From assembly GCF_014490445.1 (NCBI RefSeq), contig NZ_JACTUZ010000002.1:1-64000 (forward strand): DNA of 64,000 nt. Reading direction: 5' to 3'. Origin of the DNA: Pseudoroseomonas ludipueritiae. Lineage in GTDB: Bacteria > Pseudomonadota > Alphaproteobacteria > Acetobacterales > Acetobacteraceae. A program made the position numbers and the translations under genes. Every line of letters starts with the position of its first letter. Positions within the stretch are counted from its first letter, which is position 1. Under the pieces are notes generated by a model, which made no database searches, was not told the origin of the DNA, and was given only the letters and a program-made list of their open reading frames with translations. Shown here one piece after another: positions 9,273-64,000 of the stretch.

Positions 9273-9285
9273 CGGGGCGCGCCGC

Positions 9286-14817: not shown

Positions 14818-15180
14818 GAAGTGACTTCTCCTGCTTTCCTGGCCATCGGCCCCATCGGTGAGCCTTGACGATTTATTACGGGATAAATTCCGCTTCGGCC
14901 TAGGGGACTTGAGCTTGGCCGCGGGAATGATTCGCTACCCGCATGACGGGGCCGCGGGTGCCTCGGCTTGCGAAGGCGGAGGCCGGCGCGCCGCTGGCCC
15001 GCGGGTTGCGATCCGCGATGGCGGAGGGAGTGGGAGGGCGGATGGCGGTTCCGCAGGAGGCCACCCGGGGCGGATGGACGGCGCCATGACGGGTAGCCGC
15101 CTGCTGCCTCGGTGGCCTTTTCGCGCCTTTCAGCGTAACCGGCATCGCAGGTGCGCGGGCTTGGCCGCAGGCAGGTGGCG
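14818..15180. other. 363-bp gap between CapA-like and TetR genes, no gene seen
   Basis: Only the promoter side of the CapA-like gene is recognisable. ATTTAT (14871-14876) and ATAAAT (14883-14888) form a perfect inverted repeat with a 6-bp spacer in an otherwise GC-rich stretch, 54 bp upstream of the CapA-like start. It is a candidate operator or -10 region. The rest (14890-15180) has strongly coding-unlike composition in all frames. Confidence 0.4.
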
Positions 15181-15789: not shown

Positions 15790-15813
15790 GTCTCCCCGAC
15801 TGCCCTGTGCCGC

Positions 15814-15842
15814 TTGCTAAGCGGAGGGACCCTCCGTATAAA
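15814..15842 (+). promoter_or_regulatory. Promoter of the molybdenum hydroxylase operon with embedded TetR operator
   Basis: TTGCTA (15814-15819) and TATAAA (15837-15842) are spaced by exactly 17 bp on the plus strand. The palindrome CGGAGGGACCCTCCG (15822-15836) fills the spacer. Binding of a dimer there would block RNA polymerase. It also lies 33 bp upstream of the divergent TetR start, so autoregulation is likely. The predicted leader to the 2Fe-2S gene is about 135 nt. Confidence 0.7.
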
Positions 15843-15984
15843 TCATCACATAGCGCCGGGCCCTGCGTAAGAACCCCCGCATGGCCTGCCTTATCTGGTC
15901 CGCGCCGAAGCGGCCAGCAACTTCGCAAAGCACCAGACCCCGTTTTCAGACCTGCCCTGCCACCGCCCTTATCAGGAGCGCCGC

Positions 15985-16482
15985 ATGAGTCTGTCCATCT
16001 CGCTGAAGGTGAATGGCGCCCCCCGGCGGATCGCGCTGGATGACCCCCGCGTCACCCTGCTCGACCTGCTGCGCGAGCGCCTGCACCTGACCGGAACCAA
16101 GAAGGGCTGCGACCGCGGCCAATGTGGCGCCTGCACCGTCCTGCTGGACGGGCAGCGCATCAATTCCTGCCTGGCCCTGGCGGCCAGTTGCGACGGCGCC
16201 GCCGTGCAGACCATCGAAGGCCTGGCGGAAGGCCAGGCGCTGCACCCTGTGCAGGCGGCCTTTATCGCCCATGACGCCTTCCAGTGCGGCTATTGCACGT
16301 CAGGGCAGATCATGAGCGCCATCGGCCTGATCCAGGAAGCCCAGGCCGGAGATGACCCTGAGCGGGTGCGGGAGGCGATGAGCGGCAATCTCTGCCGCTG
16401 TGGCGCCTATGCCGGCATCACCGCCGCCGTGCTGGAAGCCCAGGCCCGGCTGGAGAACGAGCAGCGGGATCAAGCCGCATGA
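15985..16482 (+). CDS. 2Fe-2S subunit of a xanthine dehydrogenase-family molybdenum hydroxylase (PaoA/YagT-like)
   Basis: The 165-residue protein carries two [2Fe-2S] clusters. A plant-ferredoxin-type site uses C42, C47, C50 and C62 (GCDRGQCGAC), and the second uses C101, C104, C137 and C139 (CGYC and CRC). It passes electrons from the molybdenum site to FAD. There is no Tat signal, unlike E. coli PaoA, so the complex should stay in the cytosol. AGGAG lies 8 nt before the ATG. Its stop overlaps the next start (ATGA). Confidence 0.93.
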   Translation: MSLSISLKVNGAPRRIALDDPRVTLLDLLRERLHLTGTKKGCDRGQCGACTVLLDGQRINSCLALAASCDGAAVQTIEGLAEGQALHPVQAAFIAHDAFQCGYCTSGQIMSAIGLIQEAQAGDDPERVREAMSGNLCRCGAYAGITAAVLEAQARLENEQRDQAA

Positions 16483-50794: not shown

Positions 50795-51265
50795 ATGGAC
50801 CATCCTGTCTTCCTGTCCGCCGCCGCGGCCGCGCCGCGCGGTAGGCCTTCCAACTACCCACCCGTTTTCGCGGCACGTATGGAAGGGCGCATCAAGCGCG
50901 TGCTGGGCGATGCCTTTGGCCTGCGCAACTTCGGCGTGAACCTGACGGAACTGCGGCCCGGCGCCTGCTCCGCGCTGCACCACGCCCATAGCCGGCAGGA
51001 CGAGTTCATCTTCGTGCTGGAGGGCGAGCCCGTGCTGGTCACCGGCGACGGCGTGGAAAGCCTGTTGCGCCCGGGCGACTGCGCCGGCTTCCCGGCCGGC
51101 GGCGCGGCGCACCACCTGGAGAACCGCACGGATAAGCCGGTGCGATACCTGGAGATCGGCGACCGCACGGAGGGAGACACCGTGACCTACCCCGCCGACG
51201 ACCTGATGGCCCTGCGAGAGGATGGCGCCTGGCGCTTCTGCCACAAGGACGGGATGCCTTGGTAA
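50795..51265 (+). CDS. Cupin-domain protein
   Basis: This 156-residue single-domain cupin starts at the ATG behind AAGGAG; an in-frame GTG overlaps the SDR stop. The first metal motif includes ALHHAHSRQDEFIFVLEGE (His and Glu ligands) and the second LLRPGDCAGFPAGGAAHHLEN. The family includes sugar isomerases, dioxygenases and binding proteins; none can be assigned. It is flanked by SDR and alpha/beta hydrolase genes in one apparent operon. Confidence 0.85.
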   Translation: MDHPVFLSAAAAAPRGRPSNYPPVFAARMEGRIKRVLGDAFGLRNFGVNLTELRPGACSALHHAHSRQDEFIFVLEGEPVLVTGDGVESLLRPGDCAGFPAGGAAHHLENRTDKPVRYLEIGDRTEGDTVTYPADDLMALREDGAWRFCHKDGMPW

Positions 51266-52170
51266 GCGCCGCGACCGTGGAGCAGGCCGTCCTGATCGCC
51301 TGCGCGGATGGTGTGCGGCTGGGCGGCCATGTCTGGCCCGCGCGGGGCGTGCCACGCGGCGCGGTGGTGGTGAATGCCGCCACGGGGGTGCTGGCGCGCT
51401 ACTACCACCGCTATGCCCGCTTCCTGGCCGCTCATGGCTTCGAGGTGCTGACCTACGACTACCGTGGCATCGGCGCTTCCCGGCCCGCCAGACTGCGGGG
51501 CTGCGGCTATCGCTGGCACCAATGGGGCACGCTGGATTGCGACGCAGCGCTGCGCTTCATGCGGCAGCACCGGCCGGGCCTGCCGCTGCATCTGGTGGGC
51601 CACAGCATCGGCGGCTTCCTGCCGGGCTTCGCGGCCAGCGCGGGGGCCATCGGCCGCATCCTCACCGTGGGCGCGCAATATGCCTATTGGCGCGATTACC
51701 GCGCCGCCGAGCGGGCCGGCCTTTTCCTGAAGTGGCACCTGGCCATGCCGCTGATGACGGCGCTCTGCGGCTACTTCCCCGGCCGCCGTCTCGGCTGGCT
51801 GGAGGACCTTCCGGCCGGGGTGGCGCATGAATGGAGCTTCCGCCGCGCGCGCATGGAACTCAGCCTGCCGCCGCAGCAGCGCCAGCCGGTTCTGGCCCGC
51901 TTCGCGGCGGTCAAGGCACCGGTTCTGGCCGTCATTGTCGCGGATGACCCGCTGGGCACGGCGCCGGCCATCCGCCGTGGCCTGGGCTATTACCGCAACG
52001 CGCCGCGGCAGGAGGTGGTGATCGCCCCGGCGGATCTTGGCGTGGCCGGGATCGGGCATTTCGGCCTCTTCCACGCGCGCTTCGAAGGCAGCTTCTGGGT
52101 GGATAGCCTGGCCTGGCTGGCGGAGGGGACCAATCCCTGGGCAGGCCATCGGGCTGACTCGGCGGCCTGA
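51259..52170 (+). CDS. Alpha/beta hydrolase (serine type)
   Basis: The product is about 303 residues with a TTG start overlapping the cupin stop by 7 bp; GTG at 51277 is an alternative. It has the oxyanion region VVVNAATGVLARYYHRYARF, TYDYRGIGAS and the nucleophile elbow GHSIGGFLPGF (Ser nucleophile). A late GIGHFGLFH supplies the likely histidine. It belongs to a group of uncharacterised hydrolases related to serine aminopeptidases. Substrate unknown. Confidence 0.8.
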   Translation: MVSAATVEQAVLIACADGVRLGGHVWPARGVPRGAVVVNAATGVLARYYHRYARFLAAHGFEVLTYDYRGIGASRPARLRGCGYRWHQWGTLDCDAALRFMRQHRPGLPLHLVGHSIGGFLPGFAASAGAIGRILTVGAQYAYWRDYRAAERAGLFLKWHLAMPLMTALCGYFPGRRLGWLEDLPAGVAHEWSFRRARMELSLPPQQRQPVLARFAAVKAPVLAVIVADDPLGTAPAIRRGLGYYRNAPRQEVVIAPADLGVAGIGHFGLFHARFEGSFWVDSLAWLAEGTNPWAGHRADSAA

Positions 52171-52230: not shown

Positions 52231-53214
52231 TCAGTCCATCCGGGCGCCGCTGGCGCGCACGGCGGCCGACCATTTCTCCCGCTCCGCCGCGACGAAGCCT
52301 GCGAAATCGCCGGGGGATTCGAGCGGCACCACCTCTGCGCCGCGTTGGCGCAGCCGGTCGACAGTCCCTTCTTCCCTCATGCCCTTCCGGAAGGCGGCAT
52401 TGACCGCCGCCACCACCGGCGCGGGCGTGCCGGCCGGTGCGAAGATGCCGTCCCAGGCCGCGACCTCGAAGCCGGGCAGCACGGAGGCGACGGTGGGAAG
52501 GTCCGGGTGCGTGGGCAGCCGCTCACGGCTTGTCACCGCCAGGGCCCGCACGGCGCCGCCCTGCAGCAGCGGCGCGGCGGCGGGGATCAGGTCGATCGCC
52601 ATATCCACGCGCCCGGCGGCAAGGTCGGTCATCGCCGCCGCATTGCCACGATAGGGGATATGGACCAGCTCCACCCCCGCCGCGCCCCGGAACATCTCCG
52701 AGGCGATATGCCCCGTGGTGCCATTGCCGGCGGAAGCATAGGTGAGCTTGCCGGGCTGCGCCTTCAGCAACCGGATCAGCTCCGGCACCGTCTCCACCGG
52801 CAGGTCCTTGCGCACCACCACCACCAGGGCGATGCGGGACAGGGCCGCGACCGGGATGAAGTCGGCATCGGGGCGGAAAGGCAGCTTCGGATAGAGCGCC
52901 TCGTTGATCGCATGGGTGCCGTTGGTGCCGTAGAGCAGGGTGTAGCCATCGGGCACCGCGCGGGCGACGGCCTCGGCGCCGATATTGCCGCCCGCGCCCA
53001 CCCGGTTCTCCACCACCAGCGGCTGGCTCAGATGCGCCTGCGCCGCCTGGGCGGAAAGCCGGCCCAGCGTGTCACCCCCGCCGCCGGCGGCGAAGGGCAC
53101 GACGAGCCGGATCGGCCGGTCAGGCCAGCCCTGCGCCCGCGCGGTGCCGGAGGTGGCGGCCAGCGCCGCCGCCGCCGCCAACAGGCTCCGCCGCTTGGTT
53201 GTTATGTTCTTCAT
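52231..53214 (-). CDS. Bug-family tripartite transporter substrate-binding receptor
   Basis: The 327-residue protein has a signal region (KRRSLLAAAAALAATSGTARAQ, cut near 28) followed by WPDRPIRLVVPFAAGGGGDT, VVENRVGAGGNIGAEAVARA, KLTYASAGNGTTGHIASEMF and DLPTVASVLPGFEVA. It is the last gene of the minus-strand aromatic operon, 24 bp after the M29/NicX-like gene. It should capture the operon's substrate or a co-substrate. It is one of two Bug genes in the same operon, which is unusual. Confidence 0.92.
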   Translation of the reverse strand: MKNITTKRRSLLAAAAALAATSGTARAQGWPDRPIRLVVPFAAGGGGDTLGRLSAQAAQAHLSQPLVVENRVGAGGNIGAEAVARAVPDGYTLLYGTNGTHAINEALYPKLPFRPDADFIPVAALSRIALVVVVRKDLPVETVPELIRLLKAQPGKLTYASAGNGTTGHIASEMFRGAAGVELVHIPYRGNAAAMTDLAAGRVDMAIDLIPAAAPLLQGGAVRALAVTSRERLPTHPDLPTVASVLPGFEVAAWDGIFAPAGTPAPVVAAVNAAFRKGMREEGTVDRLRQRGAEVVPLESPGDFAGFVAAEREKWSAAVRASGARMD

Positions 53215-53238
53215 GGACGCCCCTCCCCTCGCGGCGCG

Positions 53239-54426
53239 TCAGACCGGATAGGCTTCGAGCAGCTCGACCGGATCGCCATAGGTCTCGGCCAGGGCGCGGA
53301 CCTTGGGGTCGCGCAGGGACATCAGGTAGCCATCCTCCACCAGCGTGCGGTTGCCGGCCACCACGGTGCTGTCGAAGGTGACGAGGTCCATGTGGATATG
53401 CGGCTCCTCCCAGTTCGGCATCACCCGGCGCAGATATTCCGAGGGCTGCAGCGCATTGATGCCGAAATGCAGCGCGCCGGGGGAATTCGGGCCGGCGGGG
53501 TAGATGTCGAAGCGCGGCGCCTTGGGGTTGTGGCCGCAGCCCACCTCTTCCAGCGTGCCGCCGATCAGGTAGTCGCGCATCACCTGCGCTTCCCAGCTGT
53601 CGCCATGCACGGCCTTCACCACGTCCTGCTCGAACTCGACGCCGACAGGCTCCTTGAACGGCTCGTCGAAACCCACGGCCCATTGTGGCCAGATGGTGCC
53701 GGTGACGCCGATCTTTTCCTCGGGCTGCAGGCCGACCATGCTGGGCTCGAAGAGATTGGGGCCATGCGTCGGCAGGTAATGGACGTAGCAGCCATCCTCA
53801 TCCGCCACATTGTGGCCGCGCCAGCGGTTGTGGCGGCGCAGGTGCTGCAGCATCTTCTCGCTGAAGGGCACGCGGAAATCGGTGCCGCGCGGGTCGGTGA
53901 CGCGCAGCGTGAAGTCGCCGGCCTCGGGGAACATGCGGCCGGTGGCGCGGATGATCTCGCCCAGCAGTTCCACCGGGAACTGCGCCTGCGGCGTGTGCAG
54001 CAGGTCCAGGTCGCGGAAGAAGGTGATCTTGACCCAGCGCTGCCCCTTGTTGCGCCGCAGCCCGATGCAATAGGGGTCCAGCACCGAGGCGAACCAGGTG
54101 GAGACCACGAAGGTCGCGCGCTCCAGCAGCGGCTTGGCTTCCTCGGGCACCGTGACGTAGCGCGTGGAATCGCCCATGTAGGAGATGAAGGTGGCACCGC
54201 GCCCGCGCGCCAGCCCCTGCACCGCCTGCACCACGCGCGGGTCGATCAGCGGGTCGGTCAGCATCACCACATGGTCGCCAGGGCGGATCGCCATGACGCG
54301 GCAGAAATTGTCCACGCCCTTCATGTAGTCGGCGGTGCTCGCCGGCTTGTGCTCCACCTTCCGCGGCAGGCCGCGGCGGGTGGAGGAGGCCATGATGTCC
54401 GGAACCTGGTTGAGGAAGCCTTTCAT
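53239..54426 (-). CDS. M29 aminopeptidase-like / NicX-like metal-dependent enzyme
   Basis: This 395-residue protein belongs to the thermophilic aminopeptidase (M29, AmpS) superfamily. That superfamily also includes NicX, the 2,5-dihydroxypyridine 5,6-dioxygenase of nicotinate breakdown. Candidate metal residues are E294 in LEEVGCGHNPKA and H345/D347 in PHIHMDLVTFDST, the H-x-D placement seen in both M29 and NicX. It lies between 4,5-dihydroxyphthalate decarboxylase-like and Bug genes in an aromatic operon. A ring-opening or other catabolic role is more likely than peptide hydrolysis. The sequence alone does not separate the two. Confidence 0.75.
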   Translation of the reverse strand: MKGFLNQVPDIMASSTRRGLPRKVEHKPASTADYMKGVDNFCRVMAIRPGDHVVMLTDPLIDPRVVQAVQGLARGRGATFISYMGDSTRYVTVPEEAKPLLERATFVVSTWFASVLDPYCIGLRRNKGQRWVKITFFRDLDLLHTPQAQFPVELLGEIIRATGRMFPEAGDFTLRVTDPRGTDFRVPFSEKMLQHLRRHNRWRGHNVADEDGCYVHYLPTHGPNLFEPSMVGLQPEEKIGVTGTIWPQWAVGFDEPFKEPVGVEFEQDVVKAVHGDSWEAQVMRDYLIGGTLEEVGCGHNPKAPRFDIYPAGPNSPGALHFGINALQPSEYLRRVMPNWEEPHIHMDLVTFDSTVVAGNRTLVEDGYLMSLRDPKVRALAETYGDPVELLEAYPV

Positions 54427-54449
54427 GGTCGTTTCCCTTTTTTCTTATC

Positions 54450-55439
54450 TCAGAGCTTGAAGGTTTCCAGCGAGGCCGGGTGGAACAGTTCCTCCGGCGC
54501 CAGCTTCCGCGAGGAAAGCCCCTGCTGGTGATGCGCCGTCAGGAAGGCCTCCAGCACATGCCGGTTCCCTTCCAGACCATAGGACCAGAAGTCGTGGCCC
54601 ATGAGCTGCCGCGCATGCTGCAACCGCTCCTCGACGAAGGGCAGCGTCACCTTGGTGGCGGCAGTGTTGGAGAGCTTCGCCATCGCGACCTCCTTGGCTT
54701 CCTCGAAAGCCTTGACGAGCGCGCCGGGCAGGTAGCGATGCTTCTCCACCACATCCTTGCGCACGCCCAGGATATGCATGATCGGGAACATGCGGTGCTT
54801 GCCGTACCATTCGGAGGCAGCGGCGACCGGGTCAGGCCAGAGCCGCCCGACCTGCGGATGCCCGCGGTCGAAGCAGGAGGGCGCGCGCGGGCCGACCACG
54901 GCATCGATCGTGCCATCCGCCAGGGCGGAGGAGAGCGTGGCGCCGGGCGGCAGGCTTTCCAGCCGCACATCGGGCGGCAGCTTCAGCGTGATCTTCTCCT
55001 CCCGCGACGGGTCCTCGTAGCCACCCCGCACCCAGGTCACGTCGGAGGGATGGACGCCGTATTCCTCCAGGATCATCCGGACCCAGACATTGGCGGTGAG
55101 CTGGTATTCCGGCAGGCCGATGCGCCGCCCCTTCAGATCCTCCGGCCGTGCGATGCCGCGATCGGTGCGGATGTAGACGGAGGTGTGGCGGAAGGCGCGG
55201 GAGGGGAAGACCGGGATGCCGACGTAGGGGCAGTCCCCGTTGGCCGTCTTGACCGTGAAGGAGGAAAGCGACAGCTCGCAGATATCGAAATCCGCATACT
55301 TGAAGGCGCGGAAGAAGATCTCCTCCGGGTCCAGGATCGAGAAGACCGGGTCGACGCCATCGATGCGCACGGTGCCATCCACCAGCGGGCGGATGCGGTC
55401 GTAATCGCCGATGGCGAGGGACAAGGGCAGAAGGGACAA
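54450..55439 (-). CDS. 4,5-dihydroxyphthalate decarboxylase-like (Pht5 family)
   Basis: The 329-residue protein has the periplasmic-binding-like fold of Pht5 with no signal peptide. It starts LSLAIGDYDRIRPLVDG, then has FDICELSLSSFTVKTANGD, GRRIGLPEYQLTANVWVRM, and YGKHRMFPIMHILGVRKDVV. Pht5 decarboxylates 4,5-dihydroxyphthalate to protocatechuate. The start is TTG with AGGAG 9 nt upstream. It lies 11 bp after the small DUF1508-like gene and 23 bp before the M29/NicX-like gene, in one operon with phthalate-type reductase and dehydrogenase genes. Confidence 0.82.
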   Translation of the reverse strand: MSLLPLSLAIGDYDRIRPLVDGTVRIDGVDPVFSILDPEEIFFRAFKYADFDICELSLSSFTVKTANGDCPYVGIPVFPSRAFRHTSVYIRTDRGIARPEDLKGRRIGLPEYQLTANVWVRMILEEYGVHPSDVTWVRGGYEDPSREEKITLKLPPDVRLESLPPGATLSSALADGTIDAVVGPRAPSCFDRGHPQVGRLWPDPVAAASEWYGKHRMFPIMHILGVRKDVVEKHRYLPGALVKAFEEAKEVAMAKLSNTAATKVTLPFVEERLQHARQLMGHDFWSYGLEGNRHVLEAFLTAHHQQGLSSRKLAPEELFHPASLETFKL

Positions 55440-55451
55440 GATACGCGGCTC

Positions 55452-55640
55452 CTAGCTGTTGCGGGCGCTGCTGGCGGCGGCTGCCAGAATTGCCACCAGG
55501 TCATTCTCGGCCGCCGCGGCGGATTGGTAGCGCGGCTGTGTTGTCACATATGGAGCCGGGGCGTCATGCGGATTGTAGATCTCCAGGAAGTAGCGGCCGG
55601 AGCGCTCGTCCCGTACAGGCTCGATGCGGATCAGGGGCAT
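55452..55640 (-). CDS. Small protein (62 aa), weakly DUF1508/YegP-like
   Basis: The 62-residue ORF begins MPLIRIEPVRDERSGRYFLE. It lies with 11-13 bp gaps between the Bug and decarboxylase genes, so it is part of the operon. RYQSAAAAENDLVAIL resembles the repeat unit of YegP/UPF0339 proteins (aromatic strand, Tyr, Ser/Lys, Ala-Ala-Glu-Asn). It has no membrane segment or cysteine. The similarity is by eye and the role is unknown. A regulatory or chaperone-like function is only a guess. Confidence 0.6.
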   Translation of the reverse strand: MPLIRIEPVRDERSGRYFLEIYNPHDAPAPYVTTQPRYQSAAAAENDLVAILAAAASSARNS

Positions 55641-55652
55641 GGTTGAACTTCC

Positions 55653-56636
55653 TTATTCGGGACGGATGCCGGCGGCCTTGGCGATTTCGCCATTCCGCGC
55701 CTGTTCTTTCTCCGTGAGGCGCGCGAAGTCCCCGCTGCTTTCCAGGATGGGCGTGCAGCCGAGGGCCGCGAGGCGTTGCACGACCTCGTCGTCGCGCAGT
55801 GCTTTCGCCGTGGCATCATGCACCGCCGCCACCTTCTCCGCCGGCAGGCCGCGCGGGCCCCAGATGCCGGTCCAGCCCTCGAAGACCATATCGGGGTAGC
55901 CCAGCTCCACCATGGTCGGCGCCTCAGGCAGCAGCGGCACGCGCTCTGTGGCGGTGACCGCGAAGGCCTTGAGCTGCCCGCCCTCGATCAGCGGCTGCAC
56001 GGCGCCGAGCGGCGCGAACATGAGGCTGACGGCGCCCGAGACCAGGTCGTTCACCGCCGGGCCGGAGCCGCGATACGCGACGATGGTGAATTCCGCGCCG
56101 AGCTTCTGCCCCAGGGCGGCGGCCCCGAGCTGGCCGACGGAGCCGAGGGTGGAACCGGCGAAGCTGAAGCGGTTGGGGTCCTGCTTCACCGCCGCCAGCA
56201 GCGCCTTCGCATCCGGCTGCCGGATATGGTTGGCGCCGCCCACCAGCACATAGGGAATGCGGACGGTGCGGGCGATGGGGGTGAAATCCGCCAGGGCATC
56301 GAAGGGCACGCCGCGCTGCACGAATTTCAGAACGAGATGCACCTCGTTCGAATAAAGCAGGTTTAGCCCGTCCGGCGCCGAGCGCGCTACTTCCTGCGCC
56401 CCGATCGCGCCATTGGCGCCGGAGCGGTTCTCGATCACCCAGGTCTGGCCCAGCCCTTCCGCGATGCGGCTGGACAGCAGGCGCGCGGTGACATCGGTGG
56501 TGCCACCGGGCGCATAGGGCACGATCAGCCGCGCGACGCTCCGCCCGCCCTGGGCCTGGGCCGCGGCAGGCAGCCCCAGCGCCGCTGCGGCGGCGAGGCG
56601 GAGCGCGTCACGACGCTTCCAGGTTCCGATGGCCAT
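55653..56636 (-). CDS. Bug-family tripartite transporter substrate-binding receptor
   Basis: The 327-residue protein has a twin-arginine-like leader (TWKRRDALRLAAAAALG, cut near AQAQ at 29). Bug motifs follow: RLIVPYAPGGTTDVTARLL, VIENRSGANGAIGAQEVA, FSFAGSTLGSVGQLGAAAL and LPEAPTMVELGYPDMV. Its start lies 29 bp inside the end of the Gfo/Idh/MocA gene, so translation is coupled. In phthalate degraders a similar receptor or permease imports the diacid; this one is the likely uptake receptor of the pathway. Confidence 0.92.
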   Translation of the reverse strand: MAIGTWKRRDALRLAAAAALGLPAAAQAQGGRSVARLIVPYAPGGTTDVTARLLSSRIAEGLGQTWVIENRSGANGAIGAQEVARSAPDGLNLLYSNEVHLVLKFVQRGVPFDALADFTPIARTVRIPYVLVGGANHIRQPDAKALLAAVKQDPNRFSFAGSTLGSVGQLGAAALGQKLGAEFTIVAYRGSGPAVNDLVSGAVSLMFAPLGAVQPLIEGGQLKAFAVTATERVPLLPEAPTMVELGYPDMVFEGWTGIWGPRGLPAEKVAAVHDATAKALRDDEVVQRLAALGCTPILESSGDFARLTEKEQARNGEIAKAAGIRPE

Positions 56637-57855
56637 AGCTTTCCTCCCAGTGTGTCATGGCCGTGTGTGCCGGCCCTTGATGCTTCAGCGTCACGTCCCG
56701 CCCGCTTCGGGCGGATTCCAGCAATGCGAGGCAGATCTCGGCCGTCGCCAGGCCCCATTCGCCGCTGTGCAGCGGGGGCAGGCCATGCATCACGGCGGCA
56801 TGAAGCTCATCGATGACCTCGGCGCGCGGGATCTCCGGCGGGGGCAGCGGCTCGAAGCGGCGCTCGTCGTCGCCATAGACCAGCACGCCCCGGGCGGTGG
56901 GCCGCAGGTCGGCCCTCTCGCAGGAGGCGATGACCAGGCCGAAATGGTTATAGGCCGGTGGCGGCGGCGCCTGGCGGGCCTCGGCGGCGCCGCTGCCCCG
57001 GCCATAGGCCCGCTGTTCCTTCAGCGCCGCTTCCTCCGCCGGGGAGGCCATGCGGCGCAGGGCCGCGCGGGCGGTGCCATAGGCGGCAGGGTCGCGGGGC
57101 ATGCCCATCTCCCCTGTCCAGTCCTGCAACTCGTCGGTGTCGAAATGGCCATGGCCGTTGTAGGTCAGCGTGGCGGAAAGGCCCTCGCCGAAATCCAGCA
57201 GCGCGTTATAGGCACCCTCCGTGCCCCGCGCCGGGTCCCAGACCGAGGCCGTGGCGCGGATGGCGCGGGCCGGGCGGCCGGCCAGCAGGCGCACCACCTC
57301 CACCTGATGCGGCGCCTGGGAGAAGATGGCGCCGCCGCCCTGCGCCGTGTCCAGTTCCTCCGGGCGGCGGGGGCGGTAGAGGTAGTCGGTGAAGTTCAGC
57401 GCCGTCACCATGCGCACCGCGCCGAATGCGCCCGAGCGGATCATGGCGCGCGTGCGGAGGTAAGGCGCGTCAAAGGAATGGCTATGGCCGACGATCAGGT
57501 GCACGCCGGCCTGCCGTGCGGCCTCCACCATGGCCAGGCAATCCGCGAGTGCGAGCGCCATGGGCTTTTCCACCAGCACATGCTTTCCGGCACCGGCGGC
57601 GAGGCGCACATGCTCGACATGGAACTGGTGCGGCGAGGCAACATAGACCGCGTCCAGGCCGGGATGGGCGCAGAGCGCCTCCACCGTCTCGTAGCCGCGG
57701 GCCTCGAAATCCGCTTCGAAGCGCGCGCGCGCCTCGGGCCTGGGATCGGCGGCGGCCACCATGCGGATGCGCGGGTCCCGCGCCAGGGTGGGCAGCATCA
57801 GCATGAAGGCCCGCCCCAGGCCCGCCACGCCCAGCCGGATCGGCGCTTCCGCCAC
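56608..57855 (-). CDS. Gfo/Idh/MocA oxidoreductase, Pht4-like cis-dihydrodiol dehydrogenase
   Basis: The 415-residue protein starts with GTG, 2 bp after the reductase stop. It has the Rossmann motif LGVAGLGRAFMLMLPTLA, VEKPMALALADCLAMVEAA (with the conserved EKP), VGHSHSFDAPYLRTRAMI and NFTDYLYRPRRPEELDTA. Length and motifs fit Pht4, which oxidises the cis-4,5-dihydrodiol of phthalate to 4,5-dihydroxyphthalate with NAD+. Position between the reductase and decarboxylase genes supports the same step here. Confidence 0.85.
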   Translation of the reverse strand: MAEAPIRLGVAGLGRAFMLMLPTLARDPRIRMVAAADPRPEARARFEADFEARGYETVEALCAHPGLDAVYVASPHQFHVEHVRLAAGAGKHVLVEKPMALALADCLAMVEAARQAGVHLIVGHSHSFDAPYLRTRAMIRSGAFGAVRMVTALNFTDYLYRPRRPEELDTAQGGGAIFSQAPHQVEVVRLLAGRPARAIRATASVWDPARGTEGAYNALLDFGEGLSATLTYNGHGHFDTDELQDWTGEMGMPRDPAAYGTARAALRRMASPAEEAALKEQRAYGRGSGAAEARQAPPPPAYNHFGLVIASCERADLRPTARGVLVYGDDERRFEPLPPPEIPRAEVIDELHAAVMHGLPPLHSGEWGLATAEICLALLESARSGRDVTLKHQGPAHTAMTHWEESYGHRNLEAS

Positions 57856-57857
57856 GC

Positions 57858-58838
57858 TCAGAGGTCCAGCACCAGCGTATCGGACCTGGCGCGGGAGACG
57901 CAGATCATCAGCGCCGATTTCCGCTCCGCCGGCGTCAGCACCAGGTCGCGGTGGTCCACCTCGCCGGACAGGTAGCGGGTGCGGCAGGTGCCGCAGGTGC
58001 CGCTTTCGCAGGAGGACGGCAGCTTGCGGCCATGGGCGCGCAGCACCTCCAGGATGGTGGTGCCCACCGGCACCTCTAGCGGCGCGCCATCCGGGCCGAG
58101 CTTCACGGAGAAAGGCTTGTCATCGGCACGCGGGCGGACGAGGTCCGAGCCGAAATCCTCGAAATGCACGGCCTCTTCCGGCCAATGGCCGGTCATGTCG
58201 CGCACCGCATCCATCAGCGGGCGCGGGCCGCAGCAATAGATGTGAGCGCCGGTCGGTTCCTCGAAGACCGGCCAGAGGTCATAGGCCTTTTCCGGGTCGC
58301 CCTCGTCGTGGTGCAGCACCACGGCATTCGTGCCGGCGAATTCCGGGGCGGCGATCTCGGCTCGGAAGGCGGTGCCGCCGGCGGCGCGGGTGAGATAGAA
58401 GAGGCGGAAGGGCTTGCCGCCCTCGGCCTGCAGGTAGCGGATCATGGCCAGGATGGGCGTGATGCCGATGCCGCCGGCGACGAAGATGTATTCCGGCGCG
58501 CGCAGGTCCAGCTCGAAGAGATTGCGCGGGGCCGAGACATCGAGGCTGCCGCCCACCTGGGTACCGTCGATCAGGCCGGTGGAGCCGCCCCTGCCGCCTT
58601 CCTCCCGCTTCACGGCGATGACGTAGCGGTCCCGCTCATGCGGGTCGTTGCAAAGGGAATAATTGCGCATGGCCCCGGAGGGCACGCGGACCGAGAGATG
58701 CGCGCCCGGCGTGAAGGGCGGCAGGTCCGCCCCCTGCGGGTGGCGCAGTTCGAAGAGCTGGATGCCATCGGCGGCGGGCTCGGCCCGGGCCACGCGCAGG
58801 GTCATCAGCTCCGCATCCGCTTCCGGTGCGTGGAGCAT
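57858..58838 (-). CDS. Phthalate dioxygenase reductase-type (PDR/VanB) flavo-iron-sulfur protein
   Basis: This 326-residue electron-transfer protein for a Rieske oxygenase has an FMN/flavin domain (LSVRVPSGAMRNYSLCND, with RxYS), an NAD domain (FVAGGIGITPILAMI and CCGPRPLMDAV) and a C-terminal [2Fe-2S] domain with C277, C282, C285 and C313 (SCESGTCGTC). The FMN-NAD-Fe2S order is the class IA phthalate dioxygenase reductase arrangement. It is the first gene of the minus-strand operon and is divergent from the Rieske oxygenase it should serve. Confidence 0.92.
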   Translation of the reverse strand: MLHAPEADAELMTLRVARAEPAADGIQLFELRHPQGADLPPFTPGAHLSVRVPSGAMRNYSLCNDPHERDRYVIAVKREEGGRGGSTGLIDGTQVGGSLDVSAPRNLFELDLRAPEYIFVAGGIGITPILAMIRYLQAEGGKPFRLFYLTRAAGGTAFRAEIAAPEFAGTNAVVLHHDEGDPEKAYDLWPVFEEPTGAHIYCCGPRPLMDAVRDMTGHWPEEAVHFEDFGSDLVRPRADDKPFSVKLGPDGAPLEVPVGTTILEVLRAHGRKLPSSCESGTCGTCRTRYLSGEVDHRDLVLTPAERKSALMICVSRARSDTLVLDL

Positions 58839-58886
58839 GGAACAGGTTTCCTCAGACGGTCTTCCGATTGCCGCCTGCGGTTATAG

Positions 58887-58902
58887 TTAGATACCTAAGT
58901 TT
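58887..58902. promoter_or_regulatory. Operator-like repeat copy 1 (TTAGATACCTAA core)
   Basis: TTAG-ATAC-CTAA is a 4-4-4 inverted repeat 49 bp upstream of the reductase start, directly upstream of a minus-strand TATAAC -10 candidate (58885-58880). With four more bases it matches copy 2 at 14 of 16 positions. It is the likely binding site of the MarR regulator encoded at 60518. Confidence 0.6.
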
Positions 58903-58952
58903 ATAAGCGCAAGGGCTTTGTGACGCTGGGCTGGTTCAACAGCATTATTTGC

Positions 58953-58971
58953 GATAATGAGAGGCATTCTC
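58953..58971. promoter_or_regulatory. Fur-box-like palindrome in the aromatic divergent promoter
   Basis: The 19 bp here match the classical Fur box (GATAATGATAATCATTATC) at 15 of 19 positions. AATGAGA (58956-58962) and TCTCATT (58968-58974) form a perfect 7-bp inverted repeat around 5 bp. It lies midway between the two operator copies. Iron control would make sense for Rieske enzymes, but this is inferred from sequence match only. Confidence 0.45.
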
Positions 58972-59037
58972 ATTGGTTTTAAAGTTACCTCTGGCTAAAA
59001 CATAAACCTCTTGACGAGAATGCCGCCGCTAAGAACA

Positions 59038-59053
59038 TTAGAGACCTAAGCTT
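59038..59053. promoter_or_regulatory. Operator-like repeat copy 2 (TTAGAGACCTAA core)
   Basis: TTAG-AGAC-CTAA repeats copy 1 in the same orientation 151 bp away, 59 bp upstream of the Rieske gene. It overlaps the -10 region of a plausible plus-strand promoter (TTGACG at 59011-59016 with AACATT 17 bp later). Binding here would repress the oxygenase gene. Confidence 0.6.
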
Positions 59054-59108
59054 TCTGCCGGTGCCATGACCATCCCAGCACCCGGCCCATGGGAAGGACG
59101 CGCCAAGC

Positions 59109-60446
59109 ATGCTGACCGCCGAGGAGAACGAAACCCTGTGCCGCGTGGAGGGCGATGCCCCCATGGGCCAGCTGATGCGCCGCCACTGGGTGCCCGCCCT
59201 GCTGTCCGAGCAACTGGCCGAGCCCGATGGCAAGCCGGTGCGCCTGACCTTGTTCGGCGAGAAGCTGGTCGCCTTCCGCGACAGCGAAGGGCGGCTGGGC
59301 GTGCTGGGCGAGATGTGCCCGCACCGCAAGGCGTCCCTCGCCTTCGGGCGCAACGAGAACTGCGGGCTGCGCTGCCTGTATCATGGCTGGAAGTTCGACG
59401 TGGAAGGCAATGTCGTGGACATGCCTTCCGAGCCCAAGGAAAGCGGCTTCGCCGAGCGGGTGAAGCACAAGTCCTATCCGGCGCGGGAAGCCGGCGGCTT
59501 CGTCTGGGTCTATATGGGCCCCGCCGATGCCATGCCGGAATTCGAGCCGCCGCCCTGGGCGCCGACGCCGGAAGCGCAGGCCGCCATCGTGCGCATCCAG
59601 CTGCCCTGCAACTGGGCGCAGATCATGGAAGGGCAGATCGACAGCGCCCATTCCTCCTCCCTGCATTCCTCCGACATGCGCCCCGCCCGCGGGGAAGCGA
59701 CGGCGCTGGACACGCACTGGGTGCGGCCTTCCACGGACAAGAACCCGCGCATCCAGGTGCAGGTCACGAATTACGGCATGCGCTATGCCGCCATCCGCCG
59801 CCCCATCATGAACGCGGCGACGCAGGATTATGTGCGGATCACCACCTTCGTCGCGCCCTTCACGGCGCTGATCCCGCCCAATTCCACCTACAACGTCGCC
59901 AGCGTCATCGTGCCGCGCGACGACACCAGCAGCTATTTCCACTTTATCGCCTGGCACGAGAGCCGGGAGGCCATCAGCACCGCCGCCTGGCGCAAGTTCT
60001 GCGTGGCGGAGGTGGGCGTCGATGTCGACGAGGACTTCCGCCCCATGAAGCGGCATGCCTCCAACGACTACCTGCAGGACCGCGCGCTGATGAAGACGGG
60101 GAATTCCTTCACCGGCATCCCCGGCATTCCCAACCAGGACATCGCCATGTGGGAGTCCATGGGCCCGATCGCGGACCGCACCTCCGAACGGCTGGGCGCC
60201 AGCGACATCGCGGTGATCCAGTTCCGCCGCATCATGCTGGATGCCGTGGCGCGCCATAGCGCCGGCGCCGCCCCCATCGGGCTGGAGGCGCCGCACCTGC
60301 CGCAGGCCAAGCTGCGCTCCTACCAGGGCGTGGTGCCGAAGACGGAGAACTGGCGCACCCTCGGCGCGTCCGAGGAGGAAGTGGCCTATCTCAGCGGCAT
60401 GGAGGAGGAGGAAGACGAGAAGGCCATGGCCCAGGCCGCTCTCTGA
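59109..60446 (+). CDS. Rieske aromatic oxygenase, phthalate 4,5-dioxygenase oxygenase-type (Pht3-like)
   Basis: The 445-residue protein has a Rieske [2Fe-2S] site with C70-P-H72 and C89-x-x-H92 (CPHRKASLAFGRNENCGLRC, YHGWK). The mononuclear iron site is around D178, H181 and H186 (EGQIDSAHSSSLHSSDM), the form seen in phthalate dioxygenases and related mono-component oxygenases. It uses electrons from the reductase encoded divergently to hydroxylate an aromatic diacid. It is the only gene before a strong hairpin. The substrate may differ from phthalate, as the neighbouring M29/NicX-like gene suggests. Confidence 0.9.
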   Translation: MLTAEENETLCRVEGDAPMGQLMRRHWVPALLSEQLAEPDGKPVRLTLFGEKLVAFRDSEGRLGVLGEMCPHRKASLAFGRNENCGLRCLYHGWKFDVEGNVVDMPSEPKESGFAERVKHKSYPAREAGGFVWVYMGPADAMPEFEPPPWAPTPEAQAAIVRIQLPCNWAQIMEGQIDSAHSSSLHSSDMRPARGEATALDTHWVRPSTDKNPRIQVQVTNYGMRYAAIRRPIMNAATQDYVRITTFVAPFTALIPPNSTYNVASVIVPRDDTSSYFHFIAWHESREAISTAAWRKFCVAEVGVDVDEDFRPMKRHASNDYLQDRALMKTGNSFTGIPGIPNQDIAMWESMGPIADRTSERLGASDIAVIQFRRIMLDAVARHSAGAAPIGLEAPHLPQAKLRSYQGVVPKTENWRTLGASEEEVAYLSGMEEEEDEKAMAQAAL

Positions 60447-60473
60447 GCGCGGGGCCGGTGGCGCCCCTCACCG

Positions 60474-60496
60474 CCCGGCCGGATACCGGCCGGGCC
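60474..60496 (+). terminator. Terminator/attenuator hairpin after the Rieske gene
   Basis: GCCCGGCCGG (60474-60483) pairs perfectly with CCGGCCGGGC (60487-60496) around an ATA loop. CCGTTT follows. It lies 27 nt after the Rieske stop and only 21 bp before the marR start. Confidence 0.6.
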
Positions 60497-60517
60497 CGTT
60501 TCGGTGTAACCTGCGCC

Positions 60518-60976
60518 ATGCCAACCACGCAGGATACCACCCTGACGGATTCCCTCCCCTTCGATCAGAGCGTCGGCTTCCTGGTGCGGGACCTGAACCG
60601 CGCGATCCAGCGGCACCTGCAGGCCAGGCTGCAGGAATATGACGTGGCGCTCGGCGCCTGGTACTTCCTGCGCGTGCTGTGGGAGGAGGACGGCCTGACG
60701 CAGCGCGACCTCGCGCGCCGGGTCGGCATGATGGAGCCCACCGCCGTGGCCGCCCTGCGCGGCATGGAGACCCAGGGCTGGATCCGCCGGGTGCGGTCCG
60801 AGACGGATAAGCGCAAGGTCTTCCTGTTTCTCACCCAGGCGGGCCACGAGCTGCGGGAGCGGCTGGTGCCCGAGGCGCATGCCGTCAATCTGGCGGCCGT
60901 CGGGAACATGACCGAGGACGAGGCGCGGATGTTCCGCGCCCTCCTCCGGCGGGCCAGGGCCAACTTTCCATCCTGA
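60518..60976 (+). CDS. MarR-family transcriptional regulator
   Basis: The product has 152 residues, from the ATG preceded by no strong Shine-Dalgarno; the frame extends upstream through the hairpin. The winged helix-turn-helix is typical: LTQRDLARRVGMMEPTAVAALRGMETQGWIRR followed by the wing with SETDKRKVFLFLT. MarR proteins often repress aromatic catabolic operons and are released by the aromatic acid or its CoA ester. It follows the Rieske gene, and the paired TTAGANACCTAA sites are its likely targets. Confidence 0.9.
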   Translation: MPTTQDTTLTDSLPFDQSVGFLVRDLNRAIQRHLQARLQEYDVALGAWYFLRVLWEEDGLTQRDLARRVGMMEPTAVAALRGMETQGWIRRVRSETDKRKVFLFLTQAGHELRERLVPEAHAVNLAAVGNMTEDEARMFRALLRRARANFPS

Positions 60977-61064: not shown

Positions 61065-62093
61065 TTAGCCCAGGAGATCGGCGTGGTAGCGCCGCGCCAC
61101 GTCGGGATGCGAGCGCAGGCGGCCCTTCAGGTAGTTCGCGCCCACATTGCGGAAGAGCGGGTTCTCCGGGTCGCTGGCGGGGCCCTGTGCCTCGGCGGCC
61201 AGGGCCGGCGGCAGCGCCAGCAGCGGCACCTCGGCATCCAGCCGCGCGCCCAGGAAAAAAGCGATGGAAGACCGGTCACGCCCCGAAGGGGGGCTGACCA
61301 CGCGGTGCACGGTGGCCTTCAAGTAGCCGTTGGAGGCCAGTTCCAGCAACTCCCCGATATTCACCACGAAGGTGCCGGGCAGCGGCACGGCATCCACCCA
61401 GCCTTCCGCCGTTTCCGCCTGCAACCCGCCGGCATCGTCCTGCAGCACGAAGGTCAGCAGCCCACTGTCCTTGTGCGCGCCCACACCCTGGTCCGCATCC
61501 TCCGTCACGCGGCCGGGATAGCGGATGATCTTCATGGTCTGGTTGGGAGAGCCGGCATAGATCTCCTCCAGCGCCTCCGGGTCGCCCACCAGCGCCTCGG
61601 CGAAGGCACGCACAAGGCGGATGGCGACCTCCGTCAGCCGCGCCTGCCATTCCAGCAGCGTGGGCCGCAGTTCCGGCAGCGCCTCGTCTGGCCAGAGATT
61701 GGGGCCCTGCAGCCGCGCCCAGGGCGGCGTATCGGGGCCGATCGGCAGGGCCTCGCGCTCGGCATGCACGTCGAACTGCTCGCGCCAGTCGGGCTTGCCC
61801 CGCGTCAGTTCCAGCCCGGCGCGGTTGTAGCCGCGGAAATGCGGGGAATGGATCATCTGCACCCTCAGCTTCTCCGCCTCCGGCAGGGCGAAGAAGCGGC
61901 GGGAGACATCGCGCACCCGCGCCTCCAGCCCGGCCGGCACGCCGTGACCGGCGAGGTAGAAGAAGCCGACCTCACGGGCGGCCTGACGCAGTTCCTCCAG
62001 GAAGGCGGCGCGGTCTTCCGGCGCGCCGTCGAGACGGCTGATGTCGAGCAGCGGCAGGCAGGCCCTGGCGGCAAGGTCGATGCTGGCGGACAT
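61065..62093 (-). CDS. 2-oxoglutarate/Fe(II) oxygenase, isopenicillin N synthase family
   Basis: This 342-residue protein has the N-terminal DIOX_N region (LPLLDISRLDGAPEDRAAF to VGFFYLAGHGVPAGLEARV). The iron-binding H-x-D lies in GVGAHKDSGLLTFVL, the distal His in LKATVHRVVSPPSG, and the oxoglutarate-binding R-x-S in RDRSSIAFFLG. It oxidises an unknown substrate, probably in amino-acid or sulfur metabolism, given the MetY gene 42 bp upstream. It is cytosolic. Confidence 0.88.
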   Translation of the reverse strand: MSASIDLAARACLPLLDISRLDGAPEDRAAFLEELRQAAREVGFFYLAGHGVPAGLEARVRDVSRRFFALPEAEKLRVQMIHSPHFRGYNRAGLELTRGKPDWREQFDVHAEREALPIGPDTPPWARLQGPNLWPDEALPELRPTLLEWQARLTEVAIRLVRAFAEALVGDPEALEEIYAGSPNQTMKIIRYPGRVTEDADQGVGAHKDSGLLTFVLQDDAGGLQAETAEGWVDAVPLPGTFVVNIGELLELASNGYLKATVHRVVSPPSGRDRSSIAFFLGARLDAEVPLLALPPALAAEAQGPASDPENPLFRNVGANYLKGRLRSHPDVARRYHADLLG

Positions 62094-62135: not shown

Positions 62136-63449
62136 TCAGGCCGCCGCGGCGAGGCCGCCGACCGCAGCCAGGCCGCGTGCCAGGTCGGCCAGGATGTCGT
62201 CCGGATGCTCCAGCCCGATCGACAGCCGCACATAGCCGGGCGTCACGCCTGTCTGGGCCTGTTCGGCGGGCGAGAGCTGGCTATGCGTGGTGCTGGCCGG
62301 ATGGATGGCGAGGCTGCGCGCGTCGCCGATATTGGCGACGTGGTAGAGCAGCCGCAGCGCATCGATGAAGCGCTGCCCGGCCTCCCGCCCGCCCGCCAGC
62401 TCCAGGCCTACCAGCCCGCCGAAGCCGCCGGCGAGGTAGCGCCTGGCGCGCTCCCGCGCCTCACCGGCCTGCAGGGAAGGATGGATCACCCGCGCCACGC
62501 CGGGCTGGCGGCTCAGCCAGGCGGCGACGGTCGCGGCCGTCTCGCTATGGCGCCGGATGCGCAGCGGCAGGGTCTCGATCCCCTGCAGGATCTGGAAGGC
62601 ATTGAAGGGCGAGAGCGGCGCGCCCAGGTCCCGCTGCACGGAGGAGCGCACGGCGGCGATATAGGGCGCCACGCCCAGCTTCGGCGCCGCCTCCGTCCAG
62701 ACGGCGCCGTGGTAGCTCGGGTCCGGCTCGTTCAGGGCGGGCTGCCGCGCGGGCACGGCGGTCCAGTCGAAACGGCCGCTGTCGATCACCGCGCCGGCGA
62801 TGCTGGTGCCATGGCCGCCCAGATACTTGGTGGCGGAATACACCACGATGGCCGCGCCATGCTCGAAGGGCCGCGCCAGCAGCGGCGCCGCCGTGTTGTC
62901 CAGGATCAGCGGGATGCCGAGGGGCCGCCCGATGGCCGCCACCTCGGCGATGGGGAAGGCCACCAGCTTCGGGTTGGGCAGCGTCTCGCCATAATAGGCG
63001 CGGGTACGGTCATCGGTGGCGCGGCGGAAATTGTCAGGGTCGGCGGGATCGACGAAGCGGACCTCGATGCCCTGGCGCTTCAGCGTATTGCTGAAAAGAT
63101 TCCAGGTGCCGCCGTAAAGGTCGGTGGAGGAGACGATATTGTCCCCCGCCCGCGCCAGGGCCAGCACCGCGAAGGCCGAGGCCGCCTGGCCCGAACCCAG
63201 CGCCAGCGCGCCCGCCCCGCCTTCCAGCGCGGCCAGGCGCTGTTCCAGCACATCCACCGTGGGATTGCCGGTGCGGGAATAGATGAAGCCCAGTTGCTCC
63301 AGCGCGAAGAGGCTGCGCGCCTGCTCGCTGCTTTCGAACCGGAAGGAGGTGGTCTGGTAGATCGGCACGGCGACCGCGCCATGAGTCGGGTCGGCACGCC
63401 AGCCGGCATGCAGGGCCAGGGTTTCCGGGTGCAGGCTTTCGTCGGACAT
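62136..63449 (-). CDS. metY: O-acetylhomoserine sulfhydrylase-like Cys/Met metabolism PLP enzyme
   Basis: The 437-residue protein starts at the ATG behind GAGGAA; the frame is open upstream but without a start signal. It has PLP-enzyme motifs AVPIYQTTSFRFESSEQ, YSRTGNPTVDVLEQRLAALE, VSSTDLYGGTWNLFSNTL and the PLP lysine in VVYSATKYLGGHGTSIAG. Length over 420 with the large lid region fits MetY/O-acetylhomoserine aminocarboxypropyltransferase, which makes homocysteine from sulfide. It is followed by a 2OG oxygenase gene and preceded by sulfonate/taurine-type ABC sequences. Confidence 0.9.
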   Translation of the reverse strand: MSDESLHPETLALHAGWRADPTHGAVAVPIYQTTSFRFESSEQARSLFALEQLGFIYSRTGNPTVDVLEQRLAALEGGAGALALGSGQAASAFAVLALARAGDNIVSSTDLYGGTWNLFSNTLKRQGIEVRFVDPADPDNFRRATDDRTRAYYGETLPNPKLVAFPIAEVAAIGRPLGIPLILDNTAAPLLARPFEHGAAIVVYSATKYLGGHGTSIAGAVIDSGRFDWTAVPARQPALNEPDPSYHGAVWTEAAPKLGVAPYIAAVRSSVQRDLGAPLSPFNAFQILQGIETLPLRIRRHSETAATVAAWLSRQPGVARVIHPSLQAGEARERARRYLAGGFGGLVGLELAGGREAGQRFIDALRLLYHVANIGDARSLAIHPASTTHSQLSPAEQAQTGVTPGYVRLSIGLEHPDDILADLARGLAAVGGLAAAA

Positions 63450-63490
63450 GTCAGCGATTCCTCGCGAGGGATTCAGGTGATGGAGGGGCA

Positions 63491-63519
63491 GGCGGGGCGG
63501 CGGCCGACATCGCCCCGCC
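63491..63519 (-). promoter_or_regulatory. GC hairpin in the leader of the metY-like gene
   Basis: GGCGGGGCG (63491-63499) pairs perfectly with CGCCCCGCC (63511-63519) across 11 nt, 42 nt upstream of the metY-like start. It could terminate the ABC transcript or control metY. I looked for conserved SAM-II or SAM-I riboswitch cores and saw none. Confidence 0.4.
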
Positions 63520-63550
63520 ATCACGCCGCGCAGGGGCCGGGACAGAGGCG

Positions 63551-63679
63551 TCACGGCGCCTTCACCGAGACCAGGGAAAGGAGGCGCTCCGGCACCGGGG
63601 ACGCGACGAGGCCGAGCTGCCGGACAGCCAGCAGCACGAGGCCCAGCGCCAGCACGACCCGGAGCGCCAGCCCCCTCAA
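63551..63679 (-). CDS. Putative small membrane protein (42 aa) coupled to the ABC ATPase gene
   Basis: A 42-codon frame starts with a TTG that overlaps the ATPase stop (TTGA) and reads [20 protein letters not shown] before a polar tail ending SLVSVKAP. One hydrophobic segment (about residues 4-24) would span the membrane. The overlap and lack of internal stops favour a real coupled gene, but no strong Shine-Dalgarno exists and no family is recognised. Confidence 0.4.
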
Positions 63680-64000
63680 TCCGCGAGCCCGAGCAGGCCC
63701 AGCGCCTGGCGGCGCAGGGCCACCAGATGCGGGTCGTCCCGGTGGCGCGGGTAAGGCCGGTCCACCACCAGCTCGGCCGTGATGCGTGCCGGGCGCGGCG
63801 AGAAGACAATGACGCGCTGCGCCAGGATCAGCGCTTCCTCCACGTCATGCGTCACCAGCAGCGCCGTCAGGCCGGAGCGCTGCCACAGCCGCACCAGTTC
63901 CGCCTGCATGGAGAGGCGGGTCAGGCTGTCCAGCTTGCCCAGCGGCTCATCCAGCAGCAGCAGGCGCGGGTCGTTCACCAGCGCCCGGGCCAGCGCCACG
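63676..64000 (-). CDS. ABC transporter ATP-binding protein (TauB/SsuB type), N-terminus beyond window
   Basis: Only the last 107 residues are visible. They begin within the signature helix ([19 protein letters not shown], holding Walker B and the catalytic Glu) and include [34 protein letters not shown] and the RPARI tail. The wording of the C-terminal half matches nitrate/sulfonate/taurine importers (NrtD/SsuB/TauB). The 5' part and permease partners lie outside the right edge. Confidence 0.88.

Follow-up and report, generated by a model that had tools for sequence, protein, structure and literature searches.

A predicted phthalate operon of Pseudoroseomonas ludipueritiae with an added gene pair for a NicX/M29-fold protein and a periplasmic receptor

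The window considered here is a stretch of 64,000 nucleotides from Pseudoroseomonas ludipueritiae (assembly GCF_014490445.1, contig NZ_JACTUZ010000002.1, positions 1 to 64,000), and it contains the genes of a predicted phthalate 4,5-dioxygenase pathway together with a gene for a 395-residue protein whose modelled fold resembles NicX and the M29 aminopeptidases (the M29-like protein). Phthalate is the aromatic acid best known from plasticisers. The preferred reading, with a probability of about one half, is a MarR-controlled phthalate operon with an added cassette of two genes, for the M29-like protein and the Bug-type receptor Bug2, in which the enzyme acts as an upstream feeder turning a compound X into phthalate. 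Bug2 would import X, and the enzyme, built on a NicX-like scaffold, would hold one metal by E294, H345, and D347, probably with H320 as a further ligand. Its peripheral, upstream step would be either the hydrolysis of a phthalate ester or amide or the opening of a ring fused to benzene. The phthalate regulon would then take over, and phthalate (benzene-1,2-dicarboxylate) would be 4,5-dihydroxylated, rearomatised, and decarboxylated to protocatechuate, whose ring would be opened by the PcaGH of the host. This reading is built on the gene content, the modelled fold, the co-occurrence with phthalate genes, the accessory nature of the added gene, and a palindrome shared among promoters; that the reaction lies upstream of phthalate is what we infer from them.

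The phthalate core of the cluster

All the genes named in the original prediction, including the two Bug receptors and a small protein, here of 62 residues, are present where it had placed them (Table 1). The single long operon that it had assumed is ruled out, as the genes are split into two divergent units. What stood is that the M29-like gene shares the minus-strand unit (58838 down to 52231, PDR-Gfo/Idh/MocA-Bug1-small62-Pht5-M29-Bug2) with the genes for the reductase, dehydrogenase, and decarboxylase, and the cassette would have been added at the end of this reductase operon. The plus-strand unit (59109-60976) consists of Rieske-MarR.

Comparison of the core enzymes with Protein Data Bank (PDB) sequences by phmmer gave strong matches (E values in Table 1). 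The Rieske protein matches 7fjl, a 'Rieske (2Fe-2S) domain protein' which is taken here to be the phthalate dioxygenase of Comamonas testosteroni KF1, the reductase (PDR) matches 2pia 'phthalate dioxygenase reductase', the Gfo/Idh/MocA dehydrogenase matches 7wzd '4,5-dihydroxyphthalate dehydrogenase', and the decarboxylase matches 9jp7 '4,5-dihydroxyphthalate decarboxylase', just as proposed for these four proteins. The last match covers residues 2-328 of 329, and this full-length similarity to a solved enzyme assigns the protein to Pht5. According to the available text of an isophthalate dioxygenase paper (PMC12445078), phthalate in the KF1 enzyme is contacted or stabilised by S182, R207, and R244. 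Aligned with 7fjl, the Rieske protein of the window keeps this set as S182, R206, and R243, and an oxygenase with Rieske and LigXa_C domains and the Ser/Arg/Arg set, as far as that text defines it, is classed as a phthalate 4,5-dioxygenase.

The core is predicted from sequence to be the phthalate 4,5-dioxygenase pathway known as pht/oph in Proteobacteria, which has the same oxygenase, reductase, Gfo/Idh/MocA dehydrogenase, Pht5, and Bug receptors. In contrast to that pathway, the window has in addition an enzyme of NicX/M29 fold and a receptor belonging to it, and the palindrome TTAGN4CTAA and the 62-residue protein are described here.

Downstream of protocatechuate, contig C375 of the host encodes pobA, pcaDC, pcaH, pcaG, and a 3-oxoadipate:acetyl-CoA acetyltransferase, all above the NCBIfam cut-offs, with a transporter-like gene seen by eye among the pca genes. 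With these genes, the route from phthalate to protocatechuate and onward is covered without an extra enzyme. No LigB-type match was found in the host genome; LigB is absent from G000 (the host), G001, G002, and G019 and present in 4 of 11 genomes searched, and intradiol-dioxygenase family members occur in all 11 genomes tested. Protocatechuate cleavage as a missing role of the M29-like enzyme was rejected, given the PcaHG of the host. A second Pht5-like gene of the host, of 44% identity, lies on a different contig (L099, G000:C223:72000-91000).

Co-occurrence with phthalate genes and a shared palindrome

As far as genome comparison goes, the M29-like gene is an accessory of phthalate metabolism, tied to the phthalate genes and dispensable for them. 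The neighbourhood comparison advised in the original prediction gave an operon of the same genus (L080) with MarR, Rieske, reductase, dehydrogenase, Bug1, small protein, and decarboxylase at 68-88% identity per gene, and without the M29-like gene or Bug2 behind the decarboxylase; no M29-like match was found in that whole genome (G007). The full gene occurs in 3 of 17 genomes of the genus, with a 33-residue piece in a fourth. Among 200 genomes of the window's family, the M29-like gene is present in 5, a dioxygenase orthologue in 10, and both in 4, while a Pht5 orthologue (at least 62% identity) is found in 17, including all 5 with the M29-like gene. In the family of the Variovorax genome G063 (299 genomes), the respective numbers are 10 for the M29-like gene and 18 for Pht5 (at least 55%), and in 6 genomes the two lie within 14 kb of each other. 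In a seventh genome (G404), dioxygenase, reductase, and dehydrogenase genes adjoin the M29-like gene, with Pht5 at only 45%. Fisher p values, uncorrected for kinship, are 1.6e-5 (dioxygenase, 200 genomes), 2.4e-6 (Pht5, 200), and 3.6e-6 (Pht5, 299). Across 398 genomes of the phylum, a profile search matched only the window's own protein.

A dioxygenase orthologue of at least 56% identity, the threshold used for the 37 loci counted, stands in the fetched stretch at 19 and elsewhere in the genome for 12 of the other 18; that in the stretch of L043 is a 96-residue piece at the edge, with the full length in the genome. On the family tree, the state 'dioxygenase adjacent' requires 9 changes (no fewer than 7 when only well-supported branches are counted), compared with 15.4 when labels are shuffled, and hence the linkage arose or was lost several times. 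The tree leaves out L025 (in-frame stop) and the partial L039 and L042, as do the alignment A1 of 22 chosen members and the residue counts; the partial L027 is in the tree and residue counts only.

In the divergent promoter, TTAGN4CTAA is unchanged at two places in eight aligned relatives, and CTTGAC is unchanged ahead of the second palindrome in the same eight. The 64-kb window has exactly two copies of the palindrome and 100 shuffles gave none; it occurs in 31 of 97 loci scanned, both alpha- and betaproteobacterial. An AATGAGA inverted repeat at 58956-58974, considered as an operator, was rejected since it is not conserved. Exact sites at phthalate promoters, not one of which lies upstream of a unit tested, served to train a weight matrix, which was applied to 38 loci with the start of the M29-containing unit set by eye. 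The scan omits the window and L007-L012, in which the M29-type gene lies within the reductase operon, as well as L027 and L039, where it lies at the edge of the contig. A site of at least 10 bits lies within 200 bp upstream of the unit in 19 of the 38, and 17 of these 19 units are without a Rieske or reductase gene (exceptions L026 and L034). In L017, L020, L022, L023, L041 (Falsiroseomonas-type), and L068, none of which has phthalate genes in its stretch, the best site of the stretch begins 44-56 bp upstream of the M29-type gene. That of L043 precedes an ABC-transporter unit that runs on to the M29-type gene, and phthalate genes are a few kb away. The control gave 4 sites in 189,433 positions of 13 loci; these include the four loci of the deep clade discussed below, which are also among the 38. 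A MarR homologue is encoded in 14 of the 19 loci having the dioxygenase in the stretch. MarR presumably reads the palindrome, and the M29-like gene probably sits in the phthalate regulon. The palindrome is a simple handle for finding further genes of this regulon.

Bug genes lie within 300 bp of the M29-type gene, on the same strand, at 31 of 48 loci, two of which repeat another record (L073 the genome of L020, L074 that of L024; both were left out of the tree, matrix scan, and residue counts). Some loci without Bug have ABC-transporter genes there instead. Moreover, a GntR/FCD-type gene, assigned by Pfam only for L031, is in the stretch of 10 loci, all betaproteobacterial or from the Variovorax-family sample, and paired TGCATGCA copies, 51-85 bp apart, lie beside the unit in 9 of these 10 and in L068. 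Gene and paired sites are found together in L031 (8206-8898, 8922-8980), L032, L043, L069, L070, L071, L076, L077, and L078. The GntR/FCD regulator could report on the M29-type enzyme's own substrate. A receptor of its own, at times a regulator gene of its own, and a tie to phthalate genes that do not need it fit an upstream feeder.

The NicX/M29-fold family and its possible reaction

No Pfam or NCBIfam family matched the 395-residue protein. The nearest fold to its AlphaFold2 model among the matches listed is NicX, the 2,5-dihydroxypyridine 5,6-dioxygenase (7cn3, 7cup), in line with the NicX-like character suggested at the outset; searching PDB sequences with a profile of the family gave no lead. 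In the available text on NicX, the Fe(II) ligands are H265, S302, H318, and D320 and the substrate contacts are H105, E177, and H189 (PMC7910607). The programs hhalign and MAFFT agree that H345-x-D347, the motif already pointed out in the original prediction, equals NicX H318-x-D320, that H216 equals H189, and that E294 equals H265. The ADE-x-G motif is also common to both. In contrast to NicX, the family has Glu for H265, Arg or Lys and never Ser for S302 (R334 in both programs), Gly or Leu for E177 (G204 by hhalign, L197 by MAFFT), and Leu for H105 (L116), so that two of the four ligands and two of the three contacts named in that text are replaced. By eye, H320 is favoured at the place of S302, on account of the modelled strand 319-324 directly before the H-x-D strand and of a common motif [hydrophobic]-X-[hydrophobic]-G-X-[N/D].

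The residues H216, H221, H320, H345, D347, R201, and W202 are identical in 44 of 44 family members aligned by MAFFT, the window's included; R201, W202, and H221 are further differences from NicX. A Glu stands 2-4 residues before a GC in 43 of the 44, and the E294 column has Glu in only 22 because of a one-residue indel. From the alignments and this invariance, the family probably binds a single metal, by ligands that neither NicX nor M29 has in this combination; by the defining features it is not NicX.

The M29 two-metal ligand set is taken here as E250, E316, H345, H378, and D380. E316 and H378-x-D380 have family counterparts, and for H345 there is a candidate two residues off. The counterpart of M29 E250 depends on which Glu of PTEE is the ligand: with the second, as these ligand numbers and a spacing of 66 residues suggest, it is Gly222 (44 of 44), and otherwise His221. 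An ordinary M29 metallopeptidase or amidase, present by chance or clipping a general amide, is suggested by the alignment of E294, H345, and D347 with metal ligands of M29 (where Glu also takes the place of NicX H265) and by H320, which is two residues from an M29 His. Unlike the aminopeptidases AmpT, AmpS, and PepS, however, none of the 22 family members matches PF02073 (M29) at E 1, the Glu of the other metal is Gly in the family if the ligand numbers given above hold, a true M29 peptidase is encoded elsewhere in the host genome, and the gene is associated with phthalate genes. The lack of a PF02073 match and the true M29 peptidase of the host led to the rejection of a true M29 identity, and the whole explanation is quite unlikely. 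An hhalign comparison with one single M29 peptidase, a weak template, was not significant. The two-metal peptidase site that the original prediction named as a possible refutation is probably missing, so far as sequence tells.

A first alternative to the upstream feeder, doubtful though better placed than the others, is that the enzyme has its place within the pathway or next to it, opening 4,5-dihydroxyphthalate or protocatechuate or clearing a dead-end product of the dioxygenase. The same palindrome at M29-type units and the NicX-type scaffold would suit it, and L040 has M29-type, dioxygenase, reductase, and dehydrogenase genes with no Pht5 homologue within its 21 kb. On the other hand, the host has PcaHG and PcaDC and the intradiol family is general in the genomes tested, 6 of the 10 dioxygenase-bearing genomes of the family sample lack the M29-like gene, and the betaproteobacterial L092-L096 have all four enzymes with an M29-like match nowhere in their genomes. 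The enzyme's own receptor and the GntR gene in 10 loci also count against this alternative.

Several observations weigh against the feeder. An enzyme acting on a pathway intermediate would be co-regulated too. Six of the 37 genomes with the gene (L024, L037, L028, L029, L030, and L038) show no dioxygenase orthologue of at least 56%, and the last four form one deep clade with other neighbours and no palindrome site, whose enzyme may have another substrate. Pht5 is a loose marker, since its orthologues often stand without other phthalate enzymes in the stretch (L081, L083, L086, L088, L091), and many matches come from close relatives, so that independent events are fewer than the counts. Half of the units scanned (19 of 38) have no 10-bit site: L014, L024, L025, L028-L033, L035, L037, L038, L040, L042, L069-L072, and L076. 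The background is higher in low-GC loci, with 7 further sites of at least 10 bits in L040 (45% GC) and 3 in L043, and L016, L018, L019, and L021 have sites and no MarR homologue seen in the stretch. Both alignment programs put NicX S302 at R334 and not at H320. Beside the M29-type gene, the deep clade has an adjoining M20-type gene, with a class II aldolase and a cupin in some (L028 7746-13406, L038 9974-16011).

The feeder reading also has a bolder form, which is unlikely: the family would be a third branch of catalysts in the NicX/M29 superfamily, its single-metal enzyme opening a heterocycle or quinone ring in a benzo-fused natural compound, for instance an isoquinolinone, and releasing phthalate. 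Isoquinolinones are broken down via phthalate and 4,5-dihydroxyphthalate, a route that could not be found in the literature searched. If this form were true, old phthalate operons would gain a natural purpose predating plasticisers. That the protein is no catalyst, but a binding protein or chaperone with an inactive NicX/M29 scaffold, is very unlikely, given the five invariant residues H216, H221, H320, H345, and D347.

Least credible is the proposal of the original prediction that the cluster serves the breakdown of a pyridine dicarboxylate, for example quinolinate, and that the M29/NicX-like enzyme opens the N-heterocycle: the fold and the kept H318/D320 and H189 positions favour it, but the other ligands and contacts in the available NicX text are lost, the carboxylate residues are of the phthalate type, neither a deformylase nor a maleamate amidase, nor any other amide-processing family, is among the ten region proteins scanned, the host has a protocatechuate route, and the gene is missing from the same-genus operon copy. 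The PcaH/PcaG/PcaDC route also supplies in part the normal downstream metabolism that was to count against this proposal. Quinolinate may be a side substrate by analogy, because a phthalate 3,4-dioxygenase of Rhodococcus is reported to be relatively active on it in the available text of a 2026 review (PMC13040137). In the phthalate cluster of L076, a quinolinate phosphoribosyltransferase gene is found at 15155-16015. Its precedent is presumably ophE of Burkholderia cepacia, which relieves phthalate/quinolinate competition.

The enzyme family and the palindrome were not found in the open-access literature searched, nor was a paper on phthalate and leucyl aminopeptidase or on Roseomonas and phthalate degradation. 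The predictions point to an undescribed enzyme family, probably metal-dependent and linked to the phthalate regulon. A conserved family outside Pfam and NCBIfam models thereby gains a likely metabolic home and a few candidate substrates that can be tested. If the enzyme makes phthalate from another compound, it would point to the natural phthalate source of soil and water bacteria or to a metal-dependent hydrolase of phthalate esters or amides unlike the esterases of the 2026 review, in whose available text most known phthalate monoesterases are of an ESTHER class (PMC13040137).

Gene layout and further features

The window is part of contig C112 in a host genome of 5.35 Mb and 394 contigs, and by locus the nearest named relative is Pseudoroseomonas wenyumeiae (M29-like protein 99% identical).

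Table 1. Features of the cluster, with window coordinates and the basis of assignment
Feature	Position	Strand	Basis
Bug2, TctC-type periplasmic receptor	52231..53214	-	Pfam TctC 2.8e-70; pairs with M29-like gene
395-residue NicX/M29-fold protein, presumed metalloenzyme of an undescribed family	53239..54426	-	AlphaFold2 pLDDT 85.6; fold nearest NicX
Predicted 4,5-dihydroxyphthalate decarboxylase (Pht5-like)	54450..55439	-	phmmer 9jp7 E 4.9e-126
62-residue conserved protein of phthalate clusters	55452..55640	-	no Pfam match at E 10; model pLDDT 94.4
Bug1, TctC-type periplasmic receptor of core operon	55653..56636	-	Pfam TctC 2e-50
Predicted phthalate 4,5-dihydrodiol dehydrogenase (Gfo/Idh/MocA)	56608..57855	-	phmmer 7wzd E 1.2e-141
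Predicted phthalate dioxygenase reductase	57858..58838	-	phmmer 2pia E 1e-112
Candidate operator 1, TTAGATACCTAA, reductase side	58887..58898	.	TTAGN4CTAA unchanged in 8 aligned promoters
CTTGAC, likely -35 of dioxygenase promoter	59010..59015	+	unchanged in 8 aligned promoters
Candidate operator 2, TTAGAGACCTAA, dioxygenase side	59038..59049	.	TTAGN4CTAA unchanged in 8 aligned promoters
Predicted phthalate 4,5-dioxygenase, oxygenase component	59109..60446	+	LigXa_C 1.7e-151, Rieske 1e-19; phmmer 7fjl E 9.1e-177
MarR-family regulator, presumed reader of TTAGN4CTAA	60458..60976	+	Pfam MarR 4.3e-12

Of 66 loci searched, 14 encode the 62-residue protein, and all 14 carry a Roseomonas-kind phthalate cluster. 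Two of them, L080 and L089, are stretches without an M29-type gene (the L089 genome has one elsewhere). The small protein belongs to the core and not to the cassette. Its model is beta-beta-alpha, and a fold search gave no match at E <0.001 (best E 1.3). As a guess, it may be a small partner of the pathway enzymes.

An alpha/beta-hydrolase gene (51259-52170) was rejected as a member of the system, as it adjoins the cluster only in L007, with a 34% partial match in L015. Beyond MarR, the opposite strand encodes a 2OG-Fe(II) oxygenase-family protein (61065-62093) and, by eye, what resembles a Cys/Met-metabolism PLP enzyme (62136-63809).

Among the other M29-type loci, L025 (3131-4315) has a frame with one in-frame stop on a 5.5-kb metagenome contig, either an error or a pseudogene. 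In L071 (4194-9181), an enolase-superfamily protein and an ABC transporter accompany the M29-type gene; in L014 (249-1957), AtuA and DUF4387 do so, and a similar enolase-like gene was seen by eye at 8230-9312. In L072 (3648-9551), the gene is followed by those for an SDR, a TPP-dependent enzyme, a Bug receptor, and, by eye, an alcohol dehydrogenase-like protein, which hints at a multi-step upper pathway.

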